Shown one piece after another: positions 48,873 to 63,666 of a DNA stretch of 64,000 nt. The stretch is from contig NC_011891.1 of NCBI RefSeq assembly GCF_000022145.1, forward strand, positions 310,001 through 374,000, given 5' to 3'. Within the stretch, counting starts at the first letter, position 1; each line of letters opens with the position of its first letter. The notes beneath the pieces were generated by a model that saw only the letters and a list, made by a program, of their open reading frames with translations, ran no database searches and had not been told where the DNA came from. The translations under genes and the position numbers were made by a program. Source of the stretch: Anaeromyxobacter dehalogenans 2CP-1 (GTDB taxonomy: Bacteria > Myxococcota > Myxococcia > Myxococcales > Anaeromyxobacteraceae).

Positions 48873-48890
48873 TTACTCTGGGTCGGGGAC
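48873..48890 (+). repeat. repeat copy A (core ACTCTGGGTCGGGG)
   Basis: Reads TTACTCTGGGTCGGGGAC. It occupies the last codons and stop of the M16 peptidase gene, whose final residues DPE are encoded within it on the opposite strand. It is 18 bases long and matches copy D at 17 positions; copies B and C are described elsewhere. Confidence 0.7.
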
Positions 48891-60247: not shown

Positions 60248-61231
60248 ATGTCCCACCCGCCCGCCTGCCGCCTCGTCCTCGCGCTCGCCTGCGCGCTCGC
60301 CGCCGGCGCCGCCCGCGGGGGCACGCCGCGCGAGCCCGTCGCCACGTTCTCCATCGCCGGGCGCGACCCGACGACCGGCGAGCTCGGGGTGGCGGTGGCC
60401 TCGCGCTTCTTCGCGGTGGGTACGGTGGTGCCGTGGGCCCGGGCCGGCGTCGGCGCGGTGGCCACGCAGGCCTTCTGCAACACGAGCTATGGCCCGCGCG
60501 GCCTCGACCTGCTCGCGAAGGGCGCCACGCCCGCCGAGGCGCTCGAGATCCTGCTGCGGTCGGATCCGGAGCGCGACCTGCGGCAGGTCGGCATCGTCTC
60601 GGCCGGCGGCGCCTCCGTGACGTACACCGGCAAGGGCACGAACGCGTGGGCGGGCGGGCGGAGCGGACCCGACTACGCGATCCAGGGAAACATCCTGACC
60701 GGCGAGGCGGTGGTGGCGGCGATGGAGCGCGCGTTCGTCGCGGGGAAGGGGTCGCTCGCCGATCGGCTGTACGCCGCGCTCGCGGCCGGCGACGCGGCCG
60801 GGGGCGACTCGCGCGGGCGGCAGTCGGCGGCCCTGCTGGTGGTGAAGGAGGGCGCCGGGTACGGCGGGTTCGACGATCGCGAGATCGACGTGCGGGTGGA
60901 CGACCACCCGCGGCCGTTCGAGGAGCTGAAGCGGCTGCTCGACTACGCGCAGATGAACGCGGCGTGGAACGAGGGGTGGACCGCGTTCCGGCGCAAGCAG
61001 TTCCCGGCGGCGCTCGCCGCGCAGGAGCGCGCCGCCGCCCGGGCGCCCGGGAACGGGGAGGTGCTCTACGACCTCGCGGTCATCCGGCTCGCCGCGGGGC
61101 AGCGGCCCGGGGCGCTGGAGGCGCTGCGCCGGGCGCTCGAGGCGAACCCGAAGCTCGCCGCGCAGGCGCGCACCGACGCGGACCTGGCCGCCCTCCGCGG
61201 CGACGCGGGGTTCGAGAAGCTGGTCCGGTAG
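60248..61231 (+). CDS. DUF1028 protein with C-terminal TPR-like region
   Basis: A 327-residue secreted protein with signal peptide ([14 protein letters not shown]), a DUF1028 domain (about 28-225) of the Ntn-hydrolase-like fold ([43 protein letters not shown]), and helical repeats to the C-terminus (about 250-327). The Ntn fold suggests an amidohydrolase, but the substrate is unknown. Its last base overlaps the next gene. Confidence 0.82.
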
Positions 61232-62415
61232 TGAGCGCCGCCACGCGCCGCGCGGTCGCCGGCGCGCTCGCCCTCGCCGCCGCGATGGGCATCGGACGGT
61301 TCGCGTACACGGCGCTGCTGCCCGGGGTGCAGCACGGGCTCGGGTTCGACGACGCCGCCGGCGGGGCCATCGCCTCGGCCAACCTGGTCGGCTACCTCGC
61401 GGGCGTGCTCTGGGCGCGGCGCCTGGCCGGGAGCCCGCGGCGGGGCGCGGCGCTGCGGCTCGGGCCCGCGGCGACCGCGGTGCTCACCGCGGCGGTGACC
61501 GGGGTCGGCTCGGAGGCGGGGTGGGCCGCGGTGCGCTTCGGCTCCGGCGTCGCGAGCGGGCTCGTGTTCGTGCTCGCATCCGCGGCGGCGCTGGAGGTCC
61601 CGCCCGACCATCTCCCCCGACCTCTCCCCCGACCCGGAGTACTTTACGGCGGGGTGGGCGTCGGGATCGCGCTGGCGGCGGTGGTCGCGGCGCTGGCGCC
61701 ACCCGGCGGGGGCTGGCGCGTGCCGTGGTGGGCGCTGGGAGGCGCGGCGGCTGCCCTGGCGGCGCCGGCGTGGAGCGTCCTCTCCGGCCCCCTCGCGAAC
61801 GACTCTGGGTCGGGGGGAGGCGTCGCGGCGGGAAGGGGCCGCGCGCCGGTCGGCTTCGGCCGGCTCGCGACCGCGTACTTCCTCGAGGGGCTGGGCTACA
61901 TCGTGAGCGGCACGTTCGCCGTGGCGGCGGTCCGGCGAACCCCTGGGCTGGAGGGCCTGGCGCCGTGGACGTGGGCGTTGGCGGGCCTCGCGGCCGCGCC
62001 TTCTGCGCTCCTCTGGGCCGCGCTCGGGCGCCGGGTCGGGGTCCGGTCGGCGCTGATCACCGCGCACCTCGTCCAGGCGGCGGGCATGGCGCTCCCATCG
62101 CTGTCCTCCGCAGCGTGGGCCGCGCTCGCCGGCGCGGCGCTGTTCGGAGGAACGTTCATCGGGATCACCACGCTGACCGTGGCGGCCGCGCGCGAGATCC
62201 GCCCGCAGGCGCTGGGGCGCGCGGTGGGAACGCTCACCGCCATCTACGGGGTCGGGCAGATCGTCGGTCCGCTGGCAGCCGGAGCCGTCGCGCAGCGCTT
62301 GGGGGACCCGAGGCCCGCCGTCCTCGGCGCGTCCGCCGCCGTCGCCATCGGGGCCCTCGTCCTCCTCATCCCCTCGCGTGCATCGCTGGCGTCGAGAACG
62401 GAACCGAACGCGTGA
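61231..62415 (+). CDS. YbfB/YjiJ-type MFS transporter with repeat-encoded loops
   Basis: A 394-residue MFS protein resembling YbfB/YjiJ transporters (AAMGIGRFAYTALLPG at the start, AYFLEGLGYIVSGTFAV in the middle). About 11 membrane helices are predicted. Two loops, DHLPRPLPRPGVLYGG near 131 and ANDSGSGGGVAAG near 193, are encoded by copies C and B of the 18-base repeat, which are inverted to one another. The reading frame stays open through both. GTG 61231 overlaps the DUF1028 stop. The substrate is unknown. Confidence 0.8.
   Translation: MSAATRRAVAGALALAAAMGIGRFAYTALLPGVQHGLGFDDAAGGAIASANLVGYLAGVLWARRLAGSPRRGAALRLGPAATAVLTAAVTGVGSEAGWAAVRFGSGVASGLVFVLASAAALEVPPDHLPRPLPRPGVLYGGVGVGIALAAVVAALAPPGGGWRVPWWALGGAAAALAAPAWSVLSGPLANDSGSGGGVAAGRGRAPVGFGRLATAYFLEGLGYIVSGTFAVAAVRRTPGLEGLAPWTWALAGLAAAPSALLWAALGRRVGVRSALITAHLVQAAGMALPSLSSAAWAALAGAALFGGTFIGITTLTVAAAREIRPQALGRAVGTLTAIYGVGQIVGPLAAGAVAQRLGDPRPAVLGASAAVAIGALVLLIPSRASLASRTEPNA
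61624..61641 (-). repeat. repeat copy C (inverted), inside MFS gene
   Basis: On the minus strand reads TACTCCGGGTCGGGGGAG. It follows a short tandem of CTCCCCCGAC (on the plus strand) and encodes part of the LPRPLPRPG loop in the MFS protein. Confidence 0.7.
61802..61819 (+). repeat. repeat copy B, inside MFS gene
   Basis: Reads ACTCTGGGTCGGGGGGAG, inverted relative to copy C 160 bases upstream, and encodes the NDSGSGGG loop of the MFS protein. Confidence 0.7.
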
Positions 62416-62433: not shown

Positions 62434-63327
62434 CTACCCGGGCGCGCAGCGCACGCCATGTGCCACACGCAGCCAGTACGTGCCGTTCGGGAACACCACG
62501 TCGCGTAGCCCGGCGCGCAACGCCTTCAAGGCCTCGCGGTACTCGTTCAGGAACGACCTGAGCCGCCCGAGCGCCTCGATGCGCTTCCACTTGTCGCGCG
62601 CGCCCACCCGCGGCCGGACGCCGCGGCGCGGCGCCACCGATGCCGGGCGGGCGGTCGGCTTCTGCGCGAGCACCCGGCGCACTCCGAGGAAGCTCCGGCC
62701 CTCCGCCCGCATGCGCTCTGCGGCGAGCTGCTCGCGATCGGCGAGCGCCTGGGCGAGGCACTCCCGGAACTGCTGCACGTCGTCGAAGCCGGGAGGAAGC
62801 GTGAGCTGGAGCTCGACGGACTCCGGCATGCTGCCGCCGGGGCGGAAGAAGTGCTCGGGCCGGCGCGCGACGAACTTCTCGCCACCGATCCGTTCGGGCG
62901 ACGACCAGAGCCCGGGCCACTCCGATGCCGTCGGCACCAGCCCCGCGGCCACCGGGTTTGCGAGCGCGTATGCAAGCCGATCGATCACGTCTTCCGGCGT
63001 CGCGAGCGTCACGGCGCTGTAGCTCCCCGACGCCCAGAACGCCTCCCATCGGCCCAGCGCCGCGTTCAGCGACCGCGCCACGAGCGAGTCGAGGTACTGC
63101 TCGAACGCGGGCAAGCGCGCGCCGGGGTCGGTCACCACCAGGTGAAAGTGGTTCGAGAGCACGCAGAACCCGTGCAGGAGCAGCCCGTACCGGCGGAGGG
63201 CGACGCCGAGCACGTACAGGAACGTCTCGTTCACCATCTCCGAGGGCCGGAGGAGCAGCTCACGCTGCGCGCAGCGGCGCGTGACGTGGTAGGTGACTCC
63301 GGAGAGAATCTGGCGCGGTGCGGTCAT
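62434..63327 (-). CDS. REP-associated-type tyrosine transposase (RAYT)
   Basis: A 297-residue Y1/HUH-type transposase of the IS200-like superfamily. The HUH motif is HFHLVV (His60, His62) and the catalytic tyrosine is probably Tyr120 in RLAYALANPVAAGLV. The start MTAPRQILSGVTYHVTRRC is also family-typical. The C-terminal 120 residues are a basic tail. No flanking IS ends were found; instead an 18-base repeat (copy D) lies 104 bases upstream of its start and copies B and C are nearby, which fits a RAYT acting on REP-like repeats. It is probably domesticated or host-encoded. Confidence 0.82.
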   Translation of the reverse strand: MTAPRQILSGVTYHVTRRCAQRELLLRPSEMVNETFLYVLGVALRRYGLLLHGFCVLSNHFHLVVTDPGARLPAFEQYLDSLVARSLNAALGRWEAFWASGSYSAVTLATPEDVIDRLAYALANPVAAGLVPTASEWPGLWSSPERIGGEKFVARRPEHFFRPGGSMPESVELQLTLPPGFDDVQQFRECLAQALADREQLAAERMRAEGRSFLGVRRVLAQKPTARPASVAPRRGVRPRVGARDKWKRIEALGRLRSFLNEYREALKALRAGLRDVVFPNGTYWLRVAHGVRCAPG

Positions 63328-63430
63328 GCCTCGCGCCTCAGGCACACGCCGTGCCGACGGATGAGGCGCCCGATCCGCCTGCTTGCATCGAGGCGACGGT
63401 CCGAAACGCGGACGCACCGGCCGAAACGCA

Positions 63431-63448
63431 TTACTCTGGGTCGGGGAG
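63431..63448 (+). repeat. repeat copy D upstream of tautomerase
   Basis: Reads TTACTCTGGGTCGGGGAG, located between the RAYT start and the tautomerase, ending 14 bases before the tautomerase ATG. Confidence 0.75.
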
Positions 63449-63462
63449 GGGAGGAGGCACGG

Positions 63463-63666
63463 ATGCCATACGTGAACATCAAGATCACCCGCGAGGGCGC
63501 GACCGCGGAGCAGAAGGCCACCCTCATCCGCAAGGTGACCGAGCTGCTCCGCGACGAGCTCGGGAAGAACCCGTCCACCACGGTCGTGGTCATCGACGAG
63601 GTGGACACGGACAACTGGGGCATCGGCGGGGAGTCGGTCACGGTCCGCCGCAAGCGCGGGAGCTGA
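63463..63666 (+). CDS. 4-oxalocrotonate tautomerase-like protein
   Basis: A 67-residue tautomerase-superfamily protein. After Met removal the catalytic Pro1 of PYVNIKITREG is exposed, and the family pattern VTELLRDELGKNPSTTVVVIDEV follows. Typical monomers are about 62-70 residues and form hexamers. The ribosome site GAGGAGG follows repeat copy D directly. The substrate is unknown. Confidence 0.85.
   Translation: MPYVNIKITREGATAEQKATLIRKVTELLRDELGKNPSTTVVVIDEVDTDNWGIGGESVTVRRKRGS

Follow-up and report, generated by a model that had tools for sequence, protein, structure and literature searches.

The window, the whole stretch of 64,000 nucleotides that was analysed, corresponds to positions 310001-374000 of the 5,029,329-base (5.03-Mb) single-contig genome of an Anaeromyxobacter. 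It carries a Y1 transposase gene of the HUH class, a transporter gene and four copies (A to D) of a short repeat. The features, in coordinates of the window, are the following:

62434-63327, minus strand: Y1 HUH transposase gene, 297 aa; ORF confirmed, and identified by motifs, profiles and fold
63433-63442, minus strand: copy D, the left-end (LE) core GACCCAGAGT of the transposase element, at the motif position common to paralogues and homologues
63443-63450, minus strand: predicted 8-nt locus-specific tag CCCTCCCC outside the LE core, deduced from array boundaries at other ends
63399-63413, minus strand: small hairpin inside the left end, GTCCG-cgttt-CGGAC, with a 5-bp stem, from a hairpin scan
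61231-62415, plus strand: MFS_4 transporter gene (Pfam PF06779, E 5e-63), host of copies B and C
61627-61640, minus strand: copy B (ACTCCGGGTCGGGG), one-mismatch core copy within the MFS_4 gene
61802-61815, plus strand: copy C (ACTCTGGGTCGGGG), exact core match within the MFS_4 gene, in frame
48875-48888, plus strand: copy A (ACTCTGGGTCGGGG), exact core match, solitary in its own genome

The transposase has the HUH motif SNHFH (H60 and H62), the catalytic tyrosine motif YALANP (Y120; YxLxNP) and a C-terminal extension of ~150 aa; residues H60, H62, Y120, N124 and P125 are invariant across 21 homologues. The match to NCBIfam NF047646 (REP_Tyr_transpos) scored 43.8 bits, below the cut-off of 80, and the Pfam Y1_Tnp match (E 0.0014) was also below cut-off. 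Judged by sequence, the protein appears as a divergent relative of the RAYTs and not as an NF047646 equivalog. The PHROGs search gave no match for it, and only chance matches were obtained in a PDB sequence search. The best fold match of its AlphaFold model (mean pLDDT 81) was 4er8, the E. coli TnpA-REP bound to a hairpin (Foldseek E 4.9e-5), with a Z of 13.8 and an rmsd of 2.7 over 152 residues; IS608 and ISDra2 were clearly lower (Z 8-9). By sequence and fold together, the protein is a RAYT-class HUH transposase, as an earlier note on this DNA had proposed. Its motif and long tail loosely match TnpAY1 subclass 2.1 or 2.3. The dN/dS values between this gene and its orthologues in the relatives G001 and G006 are 0.18-0.27, which indicates that the gene has been kept functional.

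The repeat core ACTCTGGGTCGGGG has three exact matches in the window, compared with none in 100 shuffles of the window, and 12 in the whole genome, compared with none for the reversed control. The genome-wide count is hence well above chance, a point that the earlier note had left to be checked. With one mismatch allowed, AAYKACTCTGGGT gave 40 matches genome-wide against 2 in the control, and with close variants included the genome holds about 40-44 copies, grouped in 16 clusters. Two mismatches in the core gave 64 matches against 44 in the control, so looser matching is uninformative. Two sub-families of the repeat are present genome-wide: TACTCTGGGTC in gene-proximal copies (e.g., 63433) and GACTCTGGGTC in most of the dispersed ones (e.g., 61802).

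Copy D, registered as an exact core match at 63433 (plus strand), starts 106 bases upstream of the transposase start codon. Copies B and C were found at 618-794 bases from the 3′ end of the gene, and copy A lies ~14 kb away; the layout reported earlier (D near the 5′ end, B and C within 800 bases of the 3′ end, A at 14 kb) was thus confirmed. Copies B and C form an outward-facing pair (61627-61815) that is in frame in an intact MFS_4 gene, with part of the protein repeat-encoded, and this pair is conserved in G001 and G006. At the site of copy A, two relatives have a second, inverted repeat group too. A small ORF (63463-63666), 4-oxalocrotonate tautomerase-like by eye, lies 17 bp downstream of copy D, and given this proximity the left end may also affect the expression of that ORF.

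The genome also holds three full-length close paralogues of the transposase (59-64% identity) and one truncated copy. Repeat clusters contain 4/4 of these full-length genes, the window's own included, and in 4/4 a copy that points away from the gene lies ~105-125 nt 5′ of the ATG; an upstream core at this distance is also found in nearly all homologues within the family. Among the 12 clusters away from any transposase gene, six lie within 50 kb of one, where 0.95 would be expected (P 0.00025). No repeat copies were detected near the more distant Y1 genes scanned at 559, 1092 and 1225 kb, nor, in a search for exact matches only, near the Y1 gene at 4583 kb. We then have the distribution across 24 genomes of the family, with the transposase gene present in 17 and absent from 7. 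Exact counts of ACTCTSGGTCGGG were 0-38 in the 17 gene-bearing genomes, including G011 and G018, which have the gene and no exact match, and 0, 0, 0, 0, 0, 1 and 0 in the 7 genomes lacking it. Other genomes of the order have 0-1 copies. Since the counts follow gene presence across the 24 genomes, repeat and gene travel together. The earlier note had proposed to examine whether the repeat's number tracks the transposase, and had held that equal abundance in relatives lacking the gene would speak against a link. With the number following the gene across the family, the proposed association stands.

In G003, which has 11 full gene copies of roughly 80-95% pairwise nucleotide identity, the homology between copies begins ~116 nt 5′ of the ATG, at CCCGACCGAGAG, and in most of them the inverse sequence, CTCTCGGTCGGG, is located ~1.13 kb from the ATG. 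The end layout recurs in further genera of the family, with cores GACCCAGAG, GACCGAGAG or GTCCCAG, and 30 elements with both LE and right-end (RE) cores were found across the family. We conclude that the repeat is the terminal inverted repeat (TIR) of the transposase's own ~1.25-kb single-gene element, and not, as had been suggested, an undescribed type of REP substrate. For the element in the window, the left end is clear; no equally clear right end was found, the nearest inverted copy lying 1.7 kb from the ATG, past the end of another gene.

The outer 8-mers of LE and RE in the family elements show no direct similarity above chance (86 vs 87.9 when permuted), so the elements have no 8-bp target-site duplication. 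Some inverted similarity was observed between these 8-mers (P 0.004 for the outer five positions). A hairpin that starts roughly 15-30 nt from the core is significant in 53% of LE sites, compared with 5% of random windows; the values are 14% for right ends and 13% for dispersed copies, over the same 5% background. No palindrome is present in the core by itself, in agreement with the earlier note, but a hairpin usually sits just inside the gene-proximal copies. The search for GTAG that the earlier note had recommended revealed no GT[AG]G-plus-hairpin unit among the repeat copies displayed. Where two neighbouring copies lie within 400 bp and have opposite orientations, they always face outward and never inward (G000, G001 and G006), and the internal sequences of the outward pairs, when compared between loci, match among orthologues only. 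At the distance where an end motif would be expected, none could be recognised in Planctomycetota homologues (41-45% identity). In G005, at 2631 and 2634 kb (L099), two transposase copies are truncated near codon 132 and have a common downstream sequence, RHS/YD-repeat-like by eye; it adjoins a full copy and is likely a larger segmental duplication.

An arrangement with TIRs at a set distance from the gene and in small clustered families was described as TIRYT/TIRtron by Di Nocera et al. 2013 (PMC3733652). The TIRYTs were placed in TnpAY1 class 2, largely in subclass 2.1, by Quentin et al. 2018 (PMC6006769); this subclass occurs in ~15% of the surveyed strains and no REP-like sequences were found near its transposases. 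The element studied here likewise encodes a RAYT-like HUH transposase that is longer than classical RAYTs, the sequences on either side of its gene, at a set distance, are terminal inverted repeats and not REPs, and the TIRs form a repeat family in dimers and clusters. It belongs to the described TIRYT/TIRtron kind and is not a new REP type. The end motif is CCCGACCSAGAG here, whereas it is GGGGWSAS there, although the latter is given for some TIRs only and so is not strictly defining (PMC3733652). In a distant relative (L205), GGGGTCAG was found. The accessible sections of PMC3733652 make no mention of Anaeromyxobacter and leave open how TIRYTs and their TIRs interact functionally.

Many adjacent same-strand copies of the repeat are nested tandem duplications, and the outer boundary of these duplications is exactly 8 nt outside the core GACCSAGAG. 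Across the family, at least 8 outside nucleotides are common to 35 of the 95 adjacent same-strand pairs, and exactly 8 to 21 of the 95, in ten genomes; among control copies, from different loci or non-adjacent, 2.5% share at least 8 nt and 1.2% exactly 8. Agreement reaches 9 nt in 7 pairs and 10 nt in 3, which matches chance extension. The 60 of 95 pairs that share fewer than 8 nt may have mutated, been independently placed or been made otherwise. The boundary also holds for the core variants GACCCAGAG, GACCGAGAG and GTCCSAG. The 8-nt tags are locus-specific (GAGGCCCC, GGGATCCA, GACGCCCA, GCGAGCCC, TTCGCCCC, GGTGCCCC and GGGACCCC), and because they differ between loci the rule is one of distance and not of sequence. 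The inner boundary is variable, from ~10 to ~430 nt. The shortest units end inside the core, as in the GGGGTC iterations beside many copies, and a 437-bp unit carries 105 codons from the start of the gene; it matches the full copy beside it at 96.6% identity and joins that copy exactly at the tag.

At 4.62 Mb, the arrays of G000 and G001 have different numbers and lengths of units, in a region where the genes have a dS of 0.08; this difference between orthologous loci indicates that units were gained or lost recently. Assembly artefacts are unlikely, since G000, G001, G002 and G005 are single-contig assemblies. The sites of dispersed copies are common to the three closest genomes, and no clean new single-copy insertion was found among them. 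At 2157 kb an outward pair is present in G000 and G006 and absent from G001, with gain and loss indistinguishable without an outgroup. Between the flanking genes, G001 (L126) has an acetyl-CoA synthetase-like gene, which G006 (L105) also has, beside the outward pair; it is absent there in G000 (L044), which has the outward pair instead, a possible repeat-associated deletion.

The fixed 8-nt boundary of the nested arrays is absent from the earlier note's account. Nested arrays of this kind are not described in the accessible parts of PMC3733652 or PMC6006769, and our literature search found no description of this Anaeromyxobacter repeat family or of the array rule. The array anatomy, with its nesting and its outer boundary fixed at 8 nt, is thus what is new here, and the boundary looks like the footprint of the enzyme's cutting position.

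We propose, with a probability of about 60%, that the TIR-bounded element builds its arrays by a nick 8 nt outside the core, inward synthesis and re-ligation. The transposase would recognise GACCSAGAG, probably along with the hairpin that lies just within the left end, and would nick the strand 8 nt outside it, whatever sequence lies there. A polymerase would extend the freed 3′ end inward over a variable stretch while the old strand is displaced, and the transposase, still linked to the displaced 5′ end, would rejoin it to the 3′ end just made. One unit would be added per round, composed of the 8-nt local tag, the core and the variable stretch, so that nested arrays would arise. A nick at this position, followed by variable inward extension and rejoining, would be expected to leave the outer boundary fixed and the inner one variable. 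Repeat copies would also be dispersed in the form of short outward-facing pairs and of arrays. The data show the link between repeat and gene, the multi-copy elements bounded by TIRs, the 8-nt boundary and the lack of a target-site duplication. What we infer is that a nick occurs, which strand it falls on, that synthesis and re-ligation follow, and that the dispersed copies are moved by the same enzyme. For copy D, which has no array at its site, the nick is predicted at 63450/63451. HUH enzymes form just such a 5′-phosphotyrosine and rejoin it to a free 3′-OH, which was demonstrated for TnpA-REP in PMC8266576. A wider proposal, that TIRYT-type HUH transposases make fixed-distance (8 nt), sequence-independent nicks at both inverted ends, on opposite strands, with reiterative extension and re-ligation, is a tentative one to which we give somewhat less than even odds.

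Arrays could also be made without the transposase, by ordinary slippage during replication or by template switching in GC-rich DNA, the enzyme having merely spread the core. Runs of G/C occur in the units, GC-rich DNA often has tandem duplications, and some junctions have 1-3 nt of common sequence. Slippage, however, does not predict an exact 8-nt boundary in ten genomes with different local 8-mers, and the counts beyond 8 drop as chance would give (21, 7, 3). When viral contigs were scanned for GGTCAGAG pairs, one was found with a Y1 gene nearby and 145 without; the latter, taken as a negative control, show no peak at 8 (2/145). We consider a slippage origin unlikely. The tag-unit-tag order of the arrays would also fit an 8-bp target-site duplication, produced if truncated elements had repeatedly inserted beside an existing end. 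This is very unlikely, because complete elements have no direct LE/RE 8-mer match and the unit interiors are locus-specific and include host DNA, which makes the units local copies and not incoming elements. No Y1 transposase is known to create target duplications.

The RAYT-like fold and sequence of the transposase, the hairpin adjoining the LE copies and the resemblance of the outward-facing pairs to REPINs are all consistent with a classical RAYT/REP system, in which the repeat would be a REP-like hairpin unit moved via single-stranded hairpin recognition and the arrays would be BIME-like. Yet the GT[AG]G foot is absent, hairpins at dispersed copies are little above background (13% vs 5%), the ~40 copies are local instead of hundreds genome-wide, and the repeats form the inverted ends of an element that carries a gene, so that we regard such a system as quite improbable. 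As for a regulatory or protein-binding site unrelated to transposition and upstream of the transposase by chance, copies do occur ~105 nt upstream of start codons and near other genes as well; but in G003 the element boundaries coincide with the repeat, which is found at both ends, and repeat numbers follow the transposase gene across genomes. We find that explanation scarcely credible.

Returning to the TIR-bounded element that is nicked 8 nt outside its core, several known systems can be compared with it. The REPtrons (RAYT-REP-BIME) of E. coli, Stenotrophomonas and Marinomonas (PMC8266576) have the same fold and a linked short-repeat family, and the same HUH-Y chemistry is expected here. 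In those REP-type relatives, cleavage was mapped at guide-chosen CT or CA dinucleotides, with the help of GTAG (PMC8266576). Here, in contrast, there are no GT[AG]G-hairpin REPs, and the apparent cut is set by distance and not by a CT or CA dinucleotide, with no sequence preference visible. Like REPINs (PMC3116915), the short repeats occur in inverted pairs, here always outward-facing; unlike them, the pairs have 86-205 bp spacers with no sequence common to loci, they are few, and their ends are TIR cores. Classical REP/BIME elements reach high genome-wide numbers, whereas the about 40-44 copies here are concentrated near transposase genes. The IS200/IS605 elements IS608 and ISDra2 share the Y1 HUH fold (Z 8-9) and a hairpin inside the left end, but here the ends are inverted rather than strand-specific, the protein (297 aa) has a large C-terminal extension, the G003 copies are ~80-95% identical, far below 99%, and no TnpB was seen. 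Unlike the DDE-type IS, the element leaves no target-site duplication, the direct LE8/RE8 similarity being equal to the permuted one.

A distant Pseudoalteromonas relative, found via a Skermanella transposase, has a right-end array of seven units that all begin with TTTCAAAG; read by eye, these units start 8 nt before GGTCAGAG or a degenerate form of it. The array boundary, again read by eye, is at 11 nt in Skermanella mucosa and at 9 nt in one viral contig. The GGTCAGAG-pair pattern had no match in 195 Myxococcota genomes. On these few cases, TIRYTs of other lineages may follow the 8-nt rule too, perhaps at slightly different distances. A relative on a Rhodospirillum rubrum plasmid (L206) has a 19-bp inverted repeat, TTAAAAGGGGTCAGACCCC, on both sides; the core of this repeat is palindromic in its own right, a possible link between TIR-type ends and REP-type hairpins.

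The 8-nt boundary provides a concrete, sequence-derived prediction of the cutting position of such enzymes, for which a culturable Anaeromyxobacter would supply a natural array assay. It would offer a simple route by which a transposon end could seed a local repeat family without full transposition. If the proposal for TIRYT-type enzymes is true, their HUH mode would differ from that of IS608 and TnpA-REP, in which hairpins and guides choose the cleavage site, and nested local amplification would be a readable genomic record of enzyme activity in several phyla.
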